Source: Deltaproteobacteria bacterium | GTDB taxonomy: Bacteria; Myxococcota_A; Polyangia; Polyangiales; Sandaracinaceae | NCBI GenBank assembly: GCA_017303575.1 | Contig: JAFLCL010000002.1 | Span: 1-64,000 of the forward strand | Reading direction: 5' to 3' | Length of the DNA stretch: 64,000 nt | Position numbers and translations under genes: made by a program | Shown: positions 4,753 through 51,212 of the stretch, piece by piece | Layout: every line of letters begins with the position of its first letter | Position numbering within the stretch: position 1 is the first letter of the stretch | The notes under the pieces: model-generated | Databases searched by the model: none | Told to the model about the DNA's origin: nothing | What the model saw: the letters and a program-made list of their open reading frames with translations, nothing else

Positions 4753-5217
4753 ATGTCCAAGCTCACGCTCACCTTCTTCACTGTCGTCACGGCGCTCGCG
4801 GGAATCGGCTGCTCGCACAACGATCGCTCGACGGCGTCCAGCTCCGAGACCGTCGCGACCACGCCGTCATCGGGTGACGAGTCGGTGTGCGGCGAGTCGC
4901 AGGTGTTCTTCGCCTCTGGCTCGGCCGAGCTCGATGATGCCGCGCGCGCGCGCCTCGCTCGTTTCGCGACGTGCCTCACGAACCACGAGATCGACACGAT
5001 CTACGTGGCCGGCATGACGGATCCGGCTGGCGACGAGGAGACGAACCTGTCGCTCGGCCGAACGCGTGCCCGCGCCGTCGCCGATTACCTGCGTGAGCAG
5101 GGCTGCACCACGCAGTTCGTGATCCGCAGCTATGGCGAGGAGGGCTCGCTCCAGAGCCAGCCGCTCTGGCCGCTCGAGCGCAGCGCGACCGTGACCGCCG
5201 TGGCGGAGTCGAGCTGA
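4753..5217 (+). CDS. OmpA-C-like domain lipoprotein
   Basis: 154 aa. The signal peptide ends ALAGIGC with Cys20 as the likely lipidated residue (Gly at -3 is slightly atypical). Residues ~48-150 form an OmpA/MotB-type peptidoglycan-binding domain: VFFASGSAELDDAARARL, then TDPAGDEETNLSLGRTRARAVADYL and a C-terminal RSYGEEG-like stretch. The domain binds diaminopimelate in the cell wall, so this is a Pal-like outer-membrane to peptidoglycan tether. A disulfide between the extra cysteines near 38 and 74 is possible. The start is preceded by GGAGAG. A good sigma-54 promoter lies 56-71 bases upstream. Confidence 0.85.
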   Translation: MSKLTLTFFTVVTALAGIGCSHNDRSTASSSETVATTPSSGDESVCGESQVFFASGSAELDDAARARLARFATCLTNHEIDTIYVAGMTDPAGDEETNLSLGRTRARAVADYLREQGCTTQFVIRSYGEEGSLQSQPLWPLERSATVTAVAESS

Positions 5218-5288
5218 GCTCACCCACCGGATCGATCATCTGCGGCGCTCCGCGAGACGGGGCGCCGCGAGTCACGAGGAGCCCCCCA

Positions 5289-6161
5289 ATGATGTCCGTC
5301 ATACGAGGCGACCAGACGCTTCCGACCCTGCGCGGCGACAGCTCGCCTCCCACCGTGGAGTCGCGCACGACGCTCGATGCGGCCGGGCGCACGGATGTCG
5401 GTCTCGTGCGCTCGCGCAACGAAGACCAGTTCCTCATCGCGCGGCTCGGTCGCTGGATGACGATCGAAGGGGCGAGCATCCCGCACGCGACGCGGGAGCT
5501 CTGGACGCCGCAGGGCACGCTCCTCGTCGTCGCGGACGGAATGGGAGGGCAGGGCGCTGGCGACGTGGCCAGCGCCGTCGTGCTCGACACGTTCGCTGCG
5601 CACTCGCTCGCGGAGATGCCGTGGCTGACGTTCGGCACGCCCGAGGGCGACGCGCTCTTGGCCCGCGACCTGACCGAGATCGCGGCGCGCTGCCAGGACC
5701 GCCTCCACGAGGTGGCCGAGCGCAAGGATCTGCCTCGACGTCTGGGCACCACGTTCACCGCCGTCTATGTGCACGACATGCGCGGCGTCGTCGCGCACGT
5801 CGGCGACACGAGGGCGTACCTCGTGCGCGACGGATCGGTGCAGCGACTCACGCGCGACCACACGCTGGCCGCGGATCTCGAGGCCCTCGGTCATCCGGCC
5901 GCTCACCAGAACGTCCTCACGAACGCGATCGGCGGCACCAACGAGAAGCCCGTCGTGGACCTCGTCTCCATGCAGCTCGCGTCGGGAGACCGGATCCTGC
6001 TCTCGAGCGATGGCCTCCACGGCGTCGTCGACGAGGTCACGATCGCGCGGCTGGTCTGGGGCGCCAAGGATCCGCGCGAGGCCAGCGACGCGCTCGTGCA
6101 GGCCGCGATCGAGCGCGGCGCGCCCGACAACGTGACTGCGGTGGTCGCCAGCATTCGCTGA
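5289..6161 (+). CDS. PP2C-family Ser/Thr protein phosphatase
   Basis: 290 aa soluble phosphatase with all the PPM metal motifs: TDVGLVRSRNEDQF (35-48), VADGMGG (81-87, D83/G84), GTTFTAV, VAHVGDTRAYLVRDG, SSDGLHGVVDE and APDNVTAVV at the C-terminus. It dephosphorylates Ser/Thr on protein targets using two metal ions. The GGAG ahead of the tandem ATGs fits the start; ATG 5292 is an equal alternative. It sits in a same-strand run with an OmpA-like lipoprotein and a Ser/Thr kinase (6849), its likely opposing enzyme. Confidence 0.9.
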   Translation: MMSVIRGDQTLPTLRGDSSPPTVESRTTLDAAGRTDVGLVRSRNEDQFLIARLGRWMTIEGASIPHATRELWTPQGTLLVVADGMGGQGAGDVASAVVLDTFAAHSLAEMPWLTFGTPEGDALLARDLTEIAARCQDRLHEVAERKDLPRRLGTTFTAVYVHDMRGVVAHVGDTRAYLVRDGSVQRLTRDHTLAADLEALGHPAAHQNVLTNAIGGTNEKPVVDLVSMQLASGDRILLSSDGLHGVVDEVTIARLVWGAKDPREASDALVQAAIERGAPDNVTAVVASIR

Positions 6162-6769: not shown

Positions 6770-6848
6770 GCGGGGCGAACTCGCCGACCGCGAGCTCGCC
6801 GCCGAGCCGCCGATCGATCCTGCTCGTGCCTGGTAGCTCCGGAGACGC

Positions 6849-7724
6849 ATGGCTCGCATGAACGGCGTGAAGGACACGGCTCGCGGGCGCCCCACGCGTC
6901 CGGAGCGTTGTGTGCCCGAGGCGGATGGCTCTTGGTTACCCAAGAGCGGTCGCTTCGTCGGGACGACTCACCGCCTCGATTCGCTGGTGGGCGAGGGCGG
7001 GGTCTCGCGCGTCTACGCGGCGTTCGACCTGACCCTCTCGCGCCGCGTCGCGATCAAGATGTTGCGGCCCGAGCTCTCGGAACGCGAGGACCTCCGCACG
7101 GCGCTCGTGGCGGAGGCGCGTGCGTTGGCCGCGTTCCACCATCCACGCATCGTCGGCATCCACGGCTGTGACACGCACCGCGGCGAGCCGTTCGTCGTGA
7201 TGGAGCTCGTCGACGGGGCGGATCTGAGCGTCCGGATCAAGGAGTCCGGTGGCTACCTGCCGCTGGTGTTCGCGCGCGAGGTGATCGCAGGCATGGCCGA
7301 GGGCGTCGCCGCGATGCACGACGCCGGCACGCCGCACGGTGATCTCAAGCCCTCGAACGTGCTCGTGGACGCGCGCGGTTGCGTGAAGCTCATCGACGTC
7401 GGGTGCCTCGCCAGCGGGCTCGGCATCGAGGGAACGCCCGCGTACATGGCGCCCGAGCGACGCAACGGGGGCGGTCCGTCGGCGGCGGACGACCTCTACG
7501 CGTTCGCCGTCACTGCGCACGAGATCCTCACGGGGTCGCGGGCGCACGACAAGCCGATCGCCTCACGGTCCGGTCCCACCTTCGAGCCGATGGTCGCGGC
7601 GCACCGCGGCGTGTCGCCAGACGTCGACGTCCTGCTCGCCCTCGCGTTGTCGGTCGAGCCGGGCGCGCGTCCCCGTGGCATCACGCCGTTCGCGTCGGCG
7701 CTGCTGCGCGCGCTCGTGCGCTGA
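6849..7724 (+). CDS. Ser/Thr protein kinase, soluble, non-RD type
   Basis: 291 aa Hanks-type kinase with no membrane segment. Gly-loop GEGGVSRVY (48-56), ATP-binding K70 in VAIK, E89 in the C-helix, catalytic loop HGDLKPSN (163-170, D165) and DVG (183-185) in place of DFG. The Arg that usually precedes the catalytic Asp is Gly, so it is a non-RD kinase and probably does not need activation-loop phosphorylation. GTPAYMAPE (195-203) marks the P+1 loop. The lobe ends near residue 285 with no extra domain. With the PP2C gene upstream it forms a phosphorylation switch pair; targets are unknown. Confidence 0.9.
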   Translation: MARMNGVKDTARGRPTRPERCVPEADGSWLPKSGRFVGTTHRLDSLVGEGGVSRVYAAFDLTLSRRVAIKMLRPELSEREDLRTALVAEARALAAFHHPRIVGIHGCDTHRGEPFVVMELVDGADLSVRIKESGGYLPLVFAREVIAGMAEGVAAMHDAGTPHGDLKPSNVLVDARGCVKLIDVGCLASGLGIEGTPAYMAPERRNGGGPSAADDLYAFAVTAHEILTGSRAHDKPIASRSGPTFEPMVAAHRGVSPDVDVLLALALSVEPGARPRGITPFASALLRALVR

Positions 7725-43836: not shown

Positions 43837-44886
43837 GTGCGCGATCGCAAGCACCCGGCGGCGGACGCTCCGCCGCGCTCCTTCTTCCTGCGTGTTCGCG
43901 GTCCTGCGCCTGTGACGTTTCGCGTGGATCCCGCAGGCCTTCCCAAGGCGATGGCGCTGGGCCCTCATGCATCCATCACCCACCTCGAGCGTGGGGTGCC
44001 CGAGCGCGTACGCCCTGCGCTCGCGCCGATCGCGCATGCGATCGCGGAGGCGTCCTCGCACCTCGAGGCAGGGAGGGCGAGCGTCGAGGTGCTCGCATCG
44101 CACGGCCTCGAGGTCGATCGACGCGACGAGCCACGTGTCTCGATCCGCAGGCACCCGGCGGGGCGATTGCGAGAAGGGTCGGTGCATCGGCTGATCGACC
44201 ACGAGCTCGTGGGGCTCTCCTCGGGTGTGCGTGCGGTGGCCAAGCGCATGTGCCCGCCGGGGGGTGCGGCCGATCGTGCGTCGCGCTTCGAGTCGATGGG
44301 ATTCGCGGCGACGTGGTTCGGCGTCACCACGCACGGCGCGCACGCGGCCGAGCGCGAGGTCATCCTCGTGGCGCGGGATCGGAACACGCTCGAGCACGCG
44401 GCGCGCGTCGAGCGGGCTCTCGTCGACGCGTCGCGTGATCGCACCGACGACGCCGAGATCGTGCGAGAGATGGGCGACTTGCTCGGCTACCCGCGCTGCT
44501 GCGTCGAGCGGTTCGTCTCGCTTCGTGCGCGTGACGACGCGTCGCTCGCGGGGGCGCTGCTCGGCGCGCTCGAGGCACCGAGCCCGTTCGCGACGTCGTT
44601 CACAGTGCCGCCGTTCGTGCTGATCTCCCACGCACCCTGCTCGCCCGAATGCGGCGCGACGGTCGCGCTCGTCGAGGGGATCCTCGCCTCCACGGACTCT
44701 GCGACGCGCGAGGCGTACGCATCCCTCGCGCGCTTCGCGTGGGGCGTGGACGAGCAGGGCTGGCTCGTGCGCACTCGTGACGGCGCGAGCGAGCGCATCG
44801 ATCCTTCCGACCCGGAGCTCTTGGCGCAGCCCATCGAGACGCCAGATCCAGCGAGCCTCCACTGGCGCCTCACGCCGCGCGCGTGA
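43837..44886 (+). CDS. DUF483 protein
   Basis: 349 aa from GTG with AAGGG in front. The C-terminal part has the DUF483 core: LLGYPRCCVERF (215-226, C221/C222) and HAPCSPECGATVAL (C268, C272), four cysteines suited to a metal or Fe-S site. The N-terminal half is unlike known domains. Family function is unknown. The last 17 bases overlap the 3' end of the radical SAM gene on the other strand, and the two may work together. Divergent from the lipoprotein gene by only 25 bases. Confidence 0.8.
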   Translation: MRDRKHPAADAPPRSFFLRVRGPAPVTFRVDPAGLPKAMALGPHASITHLERGVPERVRPALAPIAHAIAEASSHLEAGRASVEVLASHGLEVDRRDEPRVSIRRHPAGRLREGSVHRLIDHELVGLSSGVRAVAKRMCPPGGAADRASRFESMGFAATWFGVTTHGAHAAEREVILVARDRNTLEHAARVERALVDASRDRTDDAEIVREMGDLLGYPRCCVERFVSLRARDDASLAGALLGALEAPSPFATSFTVPPFVLISHAPCSPECGATVALVEGILASTDSATREAYASLARFAWGVDEQGWLVRTRDGASERIDPSDPELLAQPIETPDPASLHWRLTPRA

Positions 44887-47065
44887 CCGTTCGCCGCTGG
44901 ACGCAGCGTGCGCGCCACGTGGGTCCCGCCGCGAGCGGGCTCGCTTCGAGCGCGAGCTCGCGCGACTTGGCCGCGCGCGCGAGGCGGTCGATCGCCGCGC
45001 ACGCGTCGTCGAGCCGTGAGAGCGCGATCGCATCGATCGGGACGACCATCCGCAGCACGTCGGGCGCGAGCGATCGGGCCATCGATCCCACGAGCCCCTC
45101 GAGATCGTGATCGAGGAGCGCGTCGTTCAGCAGCAGGCGGACCTCGCGGGCTCCCTCGAACACGAAGGCGTCGAGCGACGACACGAGTCGTGACACGTCC
45201 TCGGGCGCGCCCACGTCCATGGAGAGCGCATCGCACGCGAACAGGCGCGAGGCGGGGGAGGGGAGGGCGATGCACACCTTGCTCCCACGGCCTCGCACGC
45301 GCGCCACGAGCGCTTCGATCTCGGGGTGCGTCGTCGCGTCGCCTCCCGCGATCACGACGGTCGACGGGGAGGTCTCGAGCAACGCATCGAGCCTCGCGCG
45401 AGCCCACGTAGGTTCCACGAACGCGTCGCGCTCGGCACACCACGGGCGTCCACAAGCGCACGCCGCGCCCACGTCGAGCACCTCGGCTCGCACGAACGCG
45501 CCGCGCGCAGGATCGGTCGCGGCGCGCGCGCCCGAGAGCCAGCGGGCCAGCGCTCGATCGAGGCGATCGACGCCGTCGCTCACCTCGCGCACGAGGCGCG
45601 ACGCGTCCTCGTCTCCTCGTCCCCGCGCGAATGCGATCGCTGCGCGCAGCTGGGCGAGCTCGGTGTCGCGCCCGAGGCGCTCACGGAGATCGCTCGCCAC
45701 GCGGTGCGCGAGGGCGGTCTCGCGATCGAGGAAGCGCCACGGACGCTCGGATGCGTAGCCCTTGCCGCGCGCGGCGCCGTCGTCGCCTTCGTCCCAACGA
45801 TCCACGATGGCGCCGTCGCGCTCGGCCGCGCGGGTGATCGGCAGCTCGTGGGTGAGGCGCAGTCGGTTGCGACCCAGATCCCAGAAGAGCTCGCGGAGGC
45901 CGTGCGCGCGCATCGTCTCGGTGCTCTGCCCGAGGTCGTCGAGGCTCGTCCACGGGCTCCACAGGATCAGGCTGTGACCGCGGTCCTCCCCGTAGCGGAA
46001 CGCGTCTCGGTGCTCACGTGCCAGCGCACGCATCGTGTCCACTGCCCGCACGAGCTCCGCGGACGTCGTACCCTTCACGTAGCGCTCGAGCTCCCGATCC
46101 GAGAACGACTCGAAGCCCGTCAGGTAGAGCGAGATCGTGTGACCCGCCGCTCGCGCGCGCTCGATCGTGCGCTCGAGGCGAGCTCGGTCGCGCACGATCA
46201 CGTCGGCGCGCATCGCGACGAGCCAACGCACCGAGGGCAGCGACGCCGTCGCGTCGATCAAGCGCGAGAGGTACGAGAGGGGCGCCTGATCGGAGAGCAC
46301 GAAGCCGTCCGTATCCGGCGCGGCCTCGCGGATCGCGCGCGCCTGCGCCGCGACCCACGCGACGAGCGCACCTTCGTCCGCGCGCTGGTAGTCGCCGCCC
46401 ATGGGACAGAACGCGCAGCCCAGCAGCGAGAGAGAGTCGTCGGAGGGATCGTCGAGGAGCGGAAGACCTGCGTAGAACGCGCTCTTGCGCGGATCGCCGG
46501 CGTAAGGACAGCCCACGCTCGCGAACAAGGTGCGGAGGCGCGGCGTCGGGATGCGCGCGTCGTCGAGCGCGATCACCTCGTGCGCGAGATCGAGCTCCAC
46601 GCGCGGCAACGACGCGCCTGCGTCGTCGTCGGTGTCGCCCAGCCACGCGTCGTGCTCGCGCACGATGTCGGCGATGGTGGGCGTGCGACGCGTGCGCCCC
46701 TTGTGTCGCCCCGGCGCGCGTCCGATCCAGCCGTCGAGGCGTGGGTCGGGATCGAAGCCATCGCCGCGGCACACCATGACCAGCTTCGCGCCGCGTCGTG
46801 CGCGCACCTCGAGCAGCGGCGCGAGATCGAAGACGCGCTCGACGAGCACGTCGGTGGGCGCGAACCGATCGAGCGCCTCGACGAGGCGCGCGCGCACGGC
46901 CTCGTCACGCGCGGGATCGCGGCCGTCGTAGTACACACGAAAGACTCGGCTCTCGTGCCCGTGGCGGCGGGCCCGTGCCGAGAGCCAGGAGAGCAACGTG
47001 TCGGGGAAGAAGCTCTCGCTCGCCTCGCCGTAGGGCACCACGAGCGCGACGCGCCGCGGGCTCAC
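44870..47065 (-). CDS. Large radical-SAM-like protein with atypical cysteine spacing
   Basis: 731 aa. An N-terminal B12-binding-like alpha/beta fold (RRVALVVPYGEASESFFPDTLLSWLSARA...; no DxHxxG) precedes a radical SAM-type core with ASVGCPY (C186) and GCAFCPMGGDY (C217, C220), that is C-x30-C-x2-C instead of C-x3-C-x2-C. DGFVLSDQAPLSYL, AMRADVI and LYLTGFESF follow as in TIM-barrel strands. A second cysteine cluster CACGRPWC (536-543) is followed by VVIAGGDATTHPEI (570-583), resembling a second, incomplete radical SAM half. The GTG start overlaps the kinase stop (GTGA). Substrate unknown. Confidence 0.75.
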   Translation of the reverse strand: MSPRRVALVVPYGEASESFFPDTLLSWLSARARRHGHESRVFRVYYDGRDPARDEAVRARLVEALDRFAPTDVLVERVFDLAPLLEVRARRGAKLVMVCRGDGFDPDPRLDGWIGRAPGRHKGRTRRTPTIADIVREHDAWLGDTDDDAGASLPRVELDLAHEVIALDDARIPTPRLRTLFASVGCPYAGDPRKSAFYAGLPLLDDPSDDSLSLLGCAFCPMGGDYQRADEGALVAWVAAQARAIREAAPDTDGFVLSDQAPLSYLSRLIDATASLPSVRWLVAMRADVIVRDRARLERTIERARAAGHTISLYLTGFESFSDRELERYVKGTTSAELVRAVDTMRALAREHRDAFRYGEDRGHSLILWSPWTSLDDLGQSTETMRAHGLRELFWDLGRNRLRLTHELPITRAAERDGAIVDRWDEGDDGAARGKGYASERPWRFLDRETALAHRVASDLRERLGRDTELAQLRAAIAFARGRGDEDASRLVREVSDGVDRLDRALARWLSGARAATDPARGAFVRAEVLDVGAACACGRPWCAERDAFVEPTWARARLDALLETSPSTVVIAGGDATTHPEIEALVARVRGRGSKVCIALPSPASRLFACDALSMDVGAPEDVSRLVSSLDAFVFEGAREVRLLLNDALLDHDLEGLVGSMARSLAPDVLRMVVPIDAIALSRLDDACAAIDRLARAAKSRELALEASPLAAGPTWRARCVQRRTVTRAA

Positions 47066-49611
47066 TGCATGTCGCCGACCGGCGCCTCGAAGAGGGCGCC
47101 CTCGTCGACGGTGGGACGGTCGGACGCTGGCGCTTCGTGCTCGGGCGGCGCGGCGCTCTCCTCTTCGGAGGGTGTCGTCGTGTCCCGCGGCGCCTGTCGC
47201 GTCTGTCGCACACGATCGCGCAAGCTCGACACACGCTCGCGCAGCCGCGCGATGCGGGCCTCGAGCTCGGCGCGATCGCCATCGTCCGAGGACAGCCGCG
47301 TCTCGAGCTCGCGAACGCGCTCGGCGTGTCGATCGCGCTCGTCGCGCGCGGCGGCCAGATCGGAGGACGCACGCTCGGCGCGCTCGCGGGCGCTCGCGAT
47401 CTCCGCGGTCAGCTCGTCACGCTCGTGCTGTCGCTCGTCGCGCACGCGCCGCAGCCTCGCCTCGAGCTCCTCGGAGCGCGCGGTCTCGTGTGCCACCGTC
47501 AGGCCCAGCTGACGCGCGCTCGTCTCCGCGCTGGTGACGCGCTCGTTGAGGGCCTCGCGCTCGGCGGTGAGATCGTCGCGCGCCGAGAGCGAGGTCGCGA
47601 GCTGACGCCCGAGGATGTCGATCTGGCTCTGCGCCGTCGCGAGCTGGTTCGCGAGCTCTTCGCTGGAGAGGCTCTCGGCCTCGTAGCGACGCAGCAGCTC
47701 CGCGTGATCGGAGTCCAGAGCCTGACGACGCGAGGCCTCGACCAAGAGGTCCGCGCGAGCCGCCGCGATCTCCTGGTGTGCCGCGCGGATCTCGCGCCGC
47801 TGGAGATCGGTGTTGCGCTGGTACACCCAGATCACCGCGCCGAACACGGCGGCGAGCGCCATCAAGAGCGGGGCGAGCCACGACATCGTGCGCCGACGCA
47901 GCTTCTTCGTCTTCTCCGGCTCGGTCAGGATCGCGAGCTCGCGCACCAGCTCTTCCGCCGTCGGACGTTTGCTCGGGTCGGCGTTGAGCCAGCGATCGAA
48001 CGAGCCGCGGAGGTAGCGGAGGTCCTTGCGCGTCGGCGGGCTCGGCGGCTCCTCCGCGCGTCGCTCGATGAACGCCTCGATCGCACCCGCGGGCACGTCT
48101 TCTTCCGTCTCGGGCTCGAGCGCGTTGCGCAGAGAGAGCGCGAGCGCGAACACATCCGCCGCAGGACCGACCTCGCGGCTCTCCTCGCGCTGCGCGTAGT
48201 GCCCGGCCACCTCGGGCGCGAAGTAGACGGGCGTGCCTCCGATCAGCGCCTCGTGCTCCTTGGCCGCGACGCCGAGGTCGATGAGGATGGGCAGCACCTC
48301 GGAGCTCCCGTCGATGCCCCGCACGAAGCCGCGGATGCGCGCGAGCAGCACGTTGTCGGGCTTGATGTCCTGGTGCCGGATGCCGTTCGCGTGGAGCGTC
48401 GCGAGCGCACGTGCGAGTGGCTCGAAGATCGAACGTGCCTCGGCGCGCGTGATGCCGCCGGTCTCGCGCACGCGCTTGTCGAGCGTCACGCCTTCATACC
48501 AAGGCATCACGAACCACAGCCGATCCTCGAACCAGCCGTGGTCCTTGAAGAGCACGACCGAGGGGTGGAACACCGCGGCGATCAGCTTGAGCTCGCGGAG
48601 CGCCTCGTCGCGGGCGGACTGCGAGAGCGCGGGCTCACGGAGCAGCTTCAGCGCCACGCGATGACCGGGAACGTCCTGATCGTCGGCCTTGTAGACGTCG
48701 CCGAACGCGCCCACGCCCACGCGGCTGAGCAGACGGTAGCGTCCGCCGATCGAGGTGCCGGGCTCGAGGCCGCGGCCGTCGCTCTCGCGCACCGAGGCTT
48801 CGTCGCGCTGCGGCTGGAGCGCGAACGTCGCGACGAAGATCTCGCTCTCCTCGCGTCGCTCGATGGCGCGGCGCGTGGAGTCCGACGCGCTCGGCGCGAT
48901 CAGGGTGCGCGCTGCCGCGAGCGCTGCGTTCAGCCGGTGCTCGATGGGCGCGAGGTCGACGGTGCTCGGATCGTCCCAGCTGCCCTCGTGCGTCCCGAGC
49001 ACGCATGCGAGCTCGAGCGGCAAGAGCTCACGCGCGAAGCGGAGCTCGAGGATCTCCGCGTGCTTCGCGTCGAGCTTGCTGCGGAGGATCTCGACCGCGC
49101 TGGCGTGCACGTCGGCGATGCGGTGCGGAACGTCGCGTCGGGGCGAGGGGGGGCCTGCACGCAGCTTCTCGAGCGCGATCCGCCGCGCGAGCCGATAGAC
49201 GTGAGCCTTGGCGCCGGGCTCGCGGATGAGCTCCGACGTGGGCGTCGCGAGCACGAGCCGCTTGAGCTCGGTGAACGCCGCAGCGCCCCGCCGCTGATCG
49301 CCGAGCTGGAGCGTGAGGTACTGCCGCAGGCCCTCCGCCCACGGGCCGATCAACCGACGGCGCAGCGCCTCGGGTGACGTCGCGTGCAGGCCGGAGAGTG
49401 CGATCGACGCGCGACCTCGGTTGCCCACCGTCTTGTGCACCGGCGCCACCAGCGGGATCGCCGCGGTCTCGTTCGCGGCCTGCCCGGCCAGCACGCTGCT
49501 CAGACCAGGCCGCACGCCGCTGACGAACGTCTCGTCGTCCGAGGACGTCTGCTCCGCGGCCGCATCGCGGGTCGCGTCGAGATCGTCCTTCTGGCTGCCG
49601 GCCGCGGTCAC
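47062..49611 (-). CDS. Membrane Ser/Thr kinase with N-terminal ECF-sigma-like domain and C-terminal coiled coil
   Basis: 849 aa. Residues ~82-152 (WAEGLRQYLTLQLGDQRRG...AKAHVYRLARRIALEKLRAG) resemble sigma-70 region 2 and ~176-238 (LDAKHAEILELRFARELLPLELACVLG...HRLNAALAAARTLI) region 4 of ECF factors, though the recognition helix looks altered. The kinase domain follows (290-565): GVGAFGDVY, K322, HQDIKPDN (D415; Arg replaced by Gln) and DLGVA (D445). A membrane helix at 577-597 leads to a long coiled coil (600-815) and a Pro/Glu tail. It is translationally coupled to the radical SAM gene and divergent from a PP2C gene. Confidence 0.85.
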   Translation of the reverse strand: MTAAGSQKDDLDATRDAAAEQTSSDDETFVSGVRPGLSSVLAGQAANETAAIPLVAPVHKTVGNRGRASIALSGLHATSPEALRRRLIGPWAEGLRQYLTLQLGDQRRGAAAFTELKRLVLATPTSELIREPGAKAHVYRLARRIALEKLRAGPPSPRRDVPHRIADVHASAVEILRSKLDAKHAEILELRFARELLPLELACVLGTHEGSWDDPSTVDLAPIEHRLNAALAAARTLIAPSASDSTRRAIERREESEIFVATFALQPQRDEASVRESDGRGLEPGTSIGGRYRLLSRVGVGAFGDVYKADDQDVPGHRVALKLLREPALSQSARDEALRELKLIAAVFHPSVVLFKDHGWFEDRLWFVMPWYEGVTLDKRVRETGGITRAEARSIFEPLARALATLHANGIRHQDIKPDNVLLARIRGFVRGIDGSSEVLPILIDLGVAAKEHEALIGGTPVYFAPEVAGHYAQREESREVGPAADVFALALSLRNALEPETEEDVPAGAIEAFIERRAEEPPSPPTRKDLRYLRGSFDRWLNADPSKRPTAEELVRELAILTEPEKTKKLRRRTMSWLAPLLMALAAVFGAVIWVYQRNTDLQRREIRAAHQEIAAARADLLVEASRRQALDSDHAELLRRYEAESLSSEELANQLATAQSQIDILGRQLATSLSARDDLTAEREALNERVTSAETSARQLGLTVAHETARSEELEARLRRVRDERQHERDELTAEIASARERAERASSDLAAARDERDRHAERVRELETRLSSDDGDRAELEARIARLRERVSSLRDRVRQTRQAPRDTTTPSEEESAAPPEHEAPASDRPTVDEGALFEAPVGDMQ

Positions 49612-49796: not shown

Positions 49797-51212
49797 ATGC
49801 TCGTCTCCGCGATCCTGATCGCGATCCTCCTCGCCGGGGGCTATGCGCTCTACCTCTGGCTGAGGCAGCAGCGCGGGGGCCGCGATCCGATGCCAGGACG
49901 CCGATCGCTCACGCCCGAGCGTGACAAGAACATCCAGCCGATCGAGCTCACCTCGAAGCGGAAGAACAACCGCCCGATCGATCCGCTCGCCTCGCTCCCC
50001 GGCGGCAGCGACGAGCTCTTGCAGCCTCGCTCGAGCCGGCCCGACCCGAGCGGTCGGCACGATCCGATGCGCACCGAGCAGATGACTGCGCCGCCCGCGA
50101 TGACGGGCGCCGTGCCGGCGGTGGGTCAGCGCACGGCGTCCTCCGCGTCGCACCCGCGGCCGGTGCCCGAGATGACCGCGGCCCTCGGTGAGCAGGTCCT
50201 GCGCGAGCGCGCCAAGACCCAGCCCGAGGTGGTGGTCGGCACCGGCGCGCCGCAGCGTCGCGTGCGTCGTCGTGATCCGACGATGCAGATCAGTGCAGAC
50301 GAGCTCGCCACGATCACGATCGACGACGAGGGCACGACGCTCGGCGTCGAGCTCCGCGCCGATCGTGACAATCGCGGCCGGGTCTCGATGCAGTCCGAGT
50401 TCGATCTCTCGATCGAGGTCGCCCTCCCGGGCGATGGCGACGACGAGCCCTCCGGACCGTTCATCCCCGTAGCCGTCGCCGCCGCGGGGGCCACCGACGT
50501 GGGCAAGAAGCGCAAGCACAACGAGGACGCGATCGCGATCGATCACGAGCGCTCGGTCTACGTGCTCGCCGACGGCATGGGTGGCTACGCCGCGGGCGAG
50601 GTCGCGAGCCAGATGTGCGTGGACACCATCCTCCGCGCCTACCAGACCAACGCGTTCGGCGGCGAGGCGATCGCCGGCCTCCCGCCGCGGGGTGACGAGC
50701 TGGTGCGCGCGATCCAGACGGCGAACCACGACATCCTCACCGAGTCGCGCGCGAACGAAGCCCGCGCCGGCATGGGCACCACGGTCGTCGCCGTCCGCAT
50801 GGTCCCGGGCAAGCAACGCGCGTACATCGCGCATGTCGGCGACAGCCGGCTCTACCGCCTGCGCAAGGACGAGCTCGTCCAGATGACCGCCGATCACACG
50901 CTCGGTGCGCAAGGCGTGACCGGGCCGGCCGCGCAGAAGCTCTCGCGGGCGGTCGGTGTGTTCGACGAGGTGGAGGTCGATCTCAACATCGACGTCCCCG
51001 AGCCCGGCGACGTCTACCTCATCTGCTCGGACGGCCTCTTCAAGATGGTCCACGAGCAGCGCATCGTGGAGATCCTCTCCGAGCAGCGTGATCCGCAGGC
51101 TGCGGGCAACATGCTCGTCGCCGAGGCGAACGGCCGCGGCGGCAAGGACAACATCTCGGTCATCGTGCTGCGCATCAGCGATCCTGCGCTGCGTCCGCGC
51201 CGCCCGAATTGA
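49797..51212 (+). CDS. Membrane-anchored PP2C phosphatase
   Basis: 471 aa. One N-terminal helix (about 2-22), a ~200-residue disordered cytoplasmic linker (Pro/Arg/Thr-rich), then a PP2C domain from ~228: TDVGKKRKHNEDAI, VLADGMGGYAAGEVAS, GTTVVAV, AHVGDSRLYRLRKDE, TADHTL, ICSDGLFKMV, GKDNISVIVL. It starts at ATG 49797, where the membrane helix begins; ribosome site weak. Probably opposes the divergent membrane kinase at 47062; both enzymes face the cytoplasm. Confidence 0.9.
   Translation: MLVSAILIAILLAGGYALYLWLRQQRGGRDPMPGRRSLTPERDKNIQPIELTSKRKNNRPIDPLASLPGGSDELLQPRSSRPDPSGRHDPMRTEQMTAPPAMTGAVPAVGQRTASSASHPRPVPEMTAALGEQVLRERAKTQPEVVVGTGAPQRRVRRRDPTMQISADELATITIDDEGTTLGVELRADRDNRGRVSMQSEFDLSIEVALPGDGDDEPSGPFIPVAVAAAGATDVGKKRKHNEDAIAIDHERSVYVLADGMGGYAAGEVASQMCVDTILRAYQTNAFGGEAIAGLPPRGDELVRAIQTANHDILTESRANEARAGMGTTVVAVRMVPGKQRAYIAHVGDSRLYRLRKDELVQMTADHTLGAQGVTGPAAQKLSRAVGVFDEVEVDLNIDVPEPGDVYLICSDGLFKMVHEQRIVEILSEQRDPQAAGNMLVAEANGRGGKDNISVIVLRISDPALRPRRPN

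Follow-up and report, generated by a model that had tools for sequence, protein, structure and literature searches.

An ECF-sigma-derived domain fused to a membrane Hanks-type kinase, a candidate sigma-mimic docking module

The window, which is the whole analysed stretch of 64,000 nucleotides, contains on its minus strand a gene for an 849-residue membrane protein with a sigma-like domain and a kinase domain (Table 1). The open frame begins with a GTG codon at 49611 and a GGAGG motif is present four bases upstream. The closest homologue, L001, aligned with residues 1-849 at 78% identity. A preliminary description of this DNA had given exactly these limits without stating the strand, and the order of domains proposed in it, a sigma-like domain followed by kinase, membrane helix and long coil, was borne out by Pfam, hydropathy and composition. 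From the N-terminus, the protein is composed of a variable tail, the sigma-like domain (residues 80-241, helical to 263), a linker, the kinase domain, the membrane helix and the coil. The tail is probably disordered. Thr78 is the sole invariant hydroxyl residue in the sigma-like domain among the 29 members aligned; it may serve as a helix N-cap or as a phosphosite, and may be only a helix cap. Two extra helices are positioned past the sigma4-like unit, and in the alignment most of the stand-alone ECFs stop short of this region (residues 244-263).

Table 1. Features of the sigma-like/kinase gene and of the adjacent phosphatase gene in the window
Feature	Position in window	Strand	Evidence
Whole gene, 849-aa sigma-like/kinase membrane protein	47062..49611	-	Open frame, GTG start, GGAGG upstream, full-length alignment with L001
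N-terminal tail, residues 1-72, poorly conserved	49396..49611	-	17-35% identity outside closest relative; low pLDDT at model start
Thr78	49378..49380	-	Invariant in 29/29 aligned members, directly before first helix
Sigma2-like three-helix unit, residues 80-152	49156..49374	-	Model helices 80-103, 106-122, 134-152; fold search
Sigma4-like unit, degenerate helix-turn-helix, residues 170-241	48889..49104	-	Profiles; model helices 170-179, 182-193, 198-205, 221-241
11-residue insert THEGSWDDPST (207-217), helix-turn-helix turn	48961..48993	-	Among aligned members, in window copy and L001 only
Two extra helices past sigma4, residues 244-251 and 256-263	48823..48882	-	Confident in model; overlap family motif LLEAFAL
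Hanks-type Ser/Thr kinase domain, residues 292-557	47941..48738	-	Pfam Pkinase E 1.3e-30
Transmembrane helix, residues 578-597	47821..47880	-	Hydropathy; hydrophobic segment just past kinase in most members
Long coil, predicted extracytoplasmic, residues 601-810	47182..47811	-	Low proline/glycine (one proline only), weak 3.5-residue periodicity, coiled-coil profile matches
Divergent gene, membrane-anchored PP2C phosphatase	49797..51212	+	Pfam PP2C_2 9e-13

The kinase part possesses the Pkinase domain together with the invariant Lys, HxD-K-N, DxG and APE of Hanks-type kinases. The catalytic residues (Gly-rich loop, Lys, Glu, HQD-K-N, DLG and APE) are kept in 29/29 aligned members, with HQD in place of HRD, and judged by these residues the domain looks catalytically active. 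Since KKLRRR directly precedes the hydrophobic stretch 578-597, the kinase should lie in the cytoplasm. A Pfam scan of the window protein found only kinase domains above the cut-off, with no receiver domain and no PASTA repeats. The gene for the PP2C phosphatase adjoins the kinase gene in all six of the six loci of the closest clade, in divergent or downstream position, and its product is likely the counter-enzyme of the kinase. A cytoplasmic kinase, one membrane helix, an extracytoplasmic part and a PP2C next door are also features of PknB-type kinases. Unlike these, the window protein has no PASTA repeats, has HQD for HRD and carries an N-terminal sigma-like domain.

A gene with a weak radical-SAM match (44870-47065, minus strand) shares 4 bases with the end of the kinase gene; the closest relative does not have it in this place. 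In the sister family, the gene immediately upstream of the kinase gene often encodes an SLC13-type anion transporter; an SLC13/CitMHS-type gene was observed in this position in L003, L010, L086, L103, L105 and L107, all of them members from beyond the closest clade of the window. A conserved ECF gene or other obvious partner gene was sought beside the family loci and none was found.

The identity of the N-terminal domain was analysed with sequence profiles and a predicted structure. The preliminary description had considered residues 82-238 as sigma-like and had made this depend on a significant match to a sigma-70 profile. On its own, the window protein matches none of the Pfam sigma families up to E<=10. 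Among the NCBIfam models the BldN family scored best, at 0.077, and a sequence search of the domain alone against the PDB gave nothing useful. Measured on this single sequence the claim would fail, and it is the family which rescues it. The window protein returned 23 related loci, 18 of which carry the sigma-like domain and form, together with the window, a 19-row alignment. Pfam Sigma70_r4_2 matches 8 of these 19 members (best 4.7e-6), while one NCBIfam ECF model matches 12 of them (best 6.2e-7), and the top PDB matches of the family profile are ECF sigma factors. In 285 genomes of the phylum, the next matches of the family profile past the family itself were stand-alone ORFs of sigma size. 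The best E-value, calculated per genome, was 3.4e-12 (columns 21-168) and another was 4e-10 (columns 24-168), and the ORFs tested carry both Pfam sigma r2 and r4. In the reverse direction, a profile built from such ECFs with SigW and RpoE matched the family kinases at 7e-8, a value that carries the bias of some ECFs having been chosen for scoring well against the sigma-like family. The stand-alone ECFs nearest to the family (L059, L060, L061, L064, L066, L067, L071 and L072) make up a single group of their own in the phylum, with the motifs VQEVFIKAxRE and GTVMSRLSRA and with partly conserved neighbours.

Comparison by hhalign gave an E-value of 3.8e-6 over sigma4. When the two halves were compared separately, by sequence only, sigma4 was significant and sigma2 was not significant alone. 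Of the Pfam r2 and r4 pair expected of a functional ECF, neither was matched by the window domain; across the members r4 was matched in some and r2 was not listed. The sigma2 half is assigned from its colinear position and from the predicted fold. The AlphaFold model of residues 66-284 (pLDDT 86, pTM 0.82) is predicted to have a sigma2-sigma4 fold. A Foldseek search of the PDB placed SigW-RsiW and PhyR first, RpoE from the RpoE-NepR complex superposed best, so that the closest forms are PhyR or sigma factors bound to an anti-sigma, and the first 43 ranked matches were all sigma factors or PhyR. The E-values of this search are modest (best 2.6e-3) with a probability of 1.00, and the target-normalised TM reaches 0.71 over about 160 residues. 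The closed, anti-sigma-bound-like shape of the model may be the usual drawing of a lone sigma by AlphaFold, and the extra helices past sigma4 might fill the groove themselves. A convergent resemblance to sigma, in an unrelated all-helical domain with one helix-turn-helix-like unit, could account for the missing Pfam match of the single sequence and for the sigma2 half. It is close to excluded by the reciprocal significance of the family over sigma4, by the colinear order of sigma2 and sigma4, and by a TM over a length beyond the reach of sigma4 alone. Family profiles, the back-match from ECFs and the fold search agree on the sigma-like reading, although the sigma2 half lacks sequence significance of its own, and the origin of the domain from an ECF sigma factor is considered firm.

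Residues which contact DNA and RNA polymerase were compared between 29 family members and 15 ECFs including SigW and RpoE, using SigW numbering. The roles of the compared positions in clamp, -10 and -35 contacts are general knowledge for ECF sigma factors. D47 is present in 14/15 ECFs and 4/29 family members, Q50 in 15/15 and 4/29, W72 in 14/15 and 0/29, and N79 in 15/15 and 0/29, and the equivalent of R175 is lost in the family. Altogether, the family has mostly lost the Asp that contacts the clamp and, in regions 2.2-2.4, the Gln, Phe, Trp and Asn. Arg residues of the recognition helix are lost as well, with the exception of R172, which is still Arg in 18/29 members. The mean net charge of the recognition helix changes from +3.5 in the ECFs to -1.8 in the family. 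The DAED clamp motif (PMC8103513) and the conserved -10 and -35 contacts of a functional ECF are mostly missing from the domain, while the scaffold residues L147, L153 and E157 are kept in 29/29 members. The changed recognition segments of the preliminary description, and the possible loss of DNA binding noted there, hold well in this comparison, where most of the contacting positions are replaced; this suggests that the domain has lost both DNA and RNA polymerase binding. It is nevertheless conserved. In comparison with L077, identity is 54% in the sigma-like domain, 22% in the tail and 38% in the coil. Codon mismatches with L001 number 25 at the second position and 74 at the third, and as third-codon changes are about three times the second-codon changes, the sigma-like domain is under purifying selection and is not decaying.

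Connections between ECF sigma factors and kinases are known, and they involve separate proteins (PMC8999054, PMC8103513, PMC13147305). In ECF43 (EcfP/PknT and EcfK/PknS), an ECF sigma without DAED is tied to a Hanks-type kinase, and in its members a phosphothreonine restores the lost charge (PMC8103513, PMC8999054). The window protein could be imagined in the same way as a working, membrane-tethered sigma switched on by its own kinase, with DAED lost as in ECF43 and the kinase already attached. This is very improbable, as a conserved Ser/Thr is missing at the positions equivalent to SigW 44-47 (0-1 of 29 members). Further points against it are the loss of most -10 and -35 contacts, the acidic recognition helix and the 11-residue insert which the window copy has in the turn of its helix-turn-helix. 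ECF43 also differs in being made of two proteins with an active sigma, whereas here one polypeptide combines lost promoter contacts with a DAED region devoid of a conserved phosphorylatable residue. ECF41, ECF42 and ECF56 similarly have sigma2-sigma4 followed by another domain. They remain, however, soluble sigma factors, which are extended by SnoaL or TPR domains (PMC8999054), while the window protein is fused to a kinase, bound to the membrane and without the contact residues.

The family belongs to a group of myxobacterial relatives and was found in 46/145 genomes of its order and in 9/9 genomes sampled from the window's own family, and many of the carrier genomes are only 3-4 Mb. Outside the order, the 285-genome phylum sample gave no match in the score range of the family, and in a scan beyond the phylum with the window protein, matches in other phyla cover the kinase part only. 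All complete members found are fused to the kinase. In the tree, a 100/100 branch separates the fused domains from the sampled ECFs, which is consistent with a single event; an ECF sigma factor and a membrane Hanks-type kinase apparently fused once, in the ancestor of the lineage. Two further diverged copies are present in the window's genome. L019 (5602-7833), which comes from the closest relative's genome, is a related kinase that has a coil but lacks the sigma-like domain.

The textbook example of a sigma mimic is PhyR. Like the window protein, it is a signalling protein with a degenerate ECF-sigma domain (sigma2-sigma4) lacking promoter-contact residues, and it is among the top fold matches. 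PhyR is an alphaproteobacterial anti-anti-sigma response regulator, which is soluble, has a receiver domain and binds NepR. In contrast, the window protein has a Hanks kinase, a membrane helix and a coil, no receiver domain was found by Pfam, and NepR (PF18557) is absent from its genome (94% complete assembly), with a positive Caulobacter control. By analogy with PhyR, we tentatively favour the reading that the sigma-like domain is a sigma-mimic docking module of a receptor kinase, with PhyR-like function in another architecture. The proposal builds on computed features, namely the sigma ancestry, the loss of contact residues, the conservation, the fusion to a kinase whose catalytic residues are intact and the PP2C neighbour in the window's own clade. 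A docking surface would best explain why a polymerase-dead sigma fold is retained under selection on a receptor kinase. Because the domain resembles a sigma, its partners would be those of sigma factors, just as NepR is the partner of PhyR. The term anti-sigma-type, used for the interaction module in the preliminary description, is imprecise on this point, as the domain would act as a sigma mimic or anti-anti-sigma.

For the topology, the sensing, the partner and the way in which regulation runs, we infer the following. After fusion of the ECF sigma to the membrane kinase, the sigma part would have lost binding to DNA and polymerase and kept its fold. The coil outside the membrane may sense an envelope signal, which would switch the kinase on. 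The sigma-like domain would then recruit a cytoplasmic ECF-binding protein, most likely an anti-sigma factor, which could be either sequestered or presented to the kinase, and the neighbouring PP2C would reverse the phosphorylation.

The main rival to the docking module is an internal regulatory role, in which a sigma factor, once a substrate of the kinase to which it is now fused, would control autoinhibition or dimerisation without an outside sigma partner. Such an origin is ready-made, as some ECFs are known phosphorylation targets of a neighbouring kinase (EcfP/PknT and EcfK/PknS; PMC8999054, PMC13147305). The invariant fusion to the kinase among complete members, the invariant Thr78, the two extra helices between sigma4 and the kinase linker and the search for a conserved partner gene beside the loci, which found none, also speak for it. 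However, the joint model of the sigma-like domain and the kinase (pTM 0.63, linker poorly ordered) showed no confident joint packing, and a complete sigma fold is more than a simple inhibitor segment needs. We regard the internal role as rather improbable, though a serious contender.

A literature search found no report of a fusion of a sigma-like domain to a kinase, although an overlooked mention in ECF classification work is possible. If the docking reading is true, one protein would link ECF sigma factors with Hanks kinases, both of them major classes of bacterial signalling, and a conserved kinase family with a DNA-binding-dead ECF domain would mean that sigma mimicry arose more than once. 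That the family represents a second, independent sigma-mimicry system outside Alphaproteobacteria, with a receptor-kinase mimic through which an envelope signal would directly cause an anti-sigma or other sigma-binder to be released or phosphorylated, is conceivable and still doubtful. The sigma-like domain offers a concrete bait for partners in the window's genome, which encodes >50 proteins with sigma region 4. In the same genome, an ECF sigma gene adjoins a kinase-like ORF at L038 on contig C80, a possible kinase-regulated sigma pair. Near the window's left end, the plus strand carries two neighbouring ORFs (5097-6158 and 6837-7721), a further PP2C-like one and a kinase-like one.
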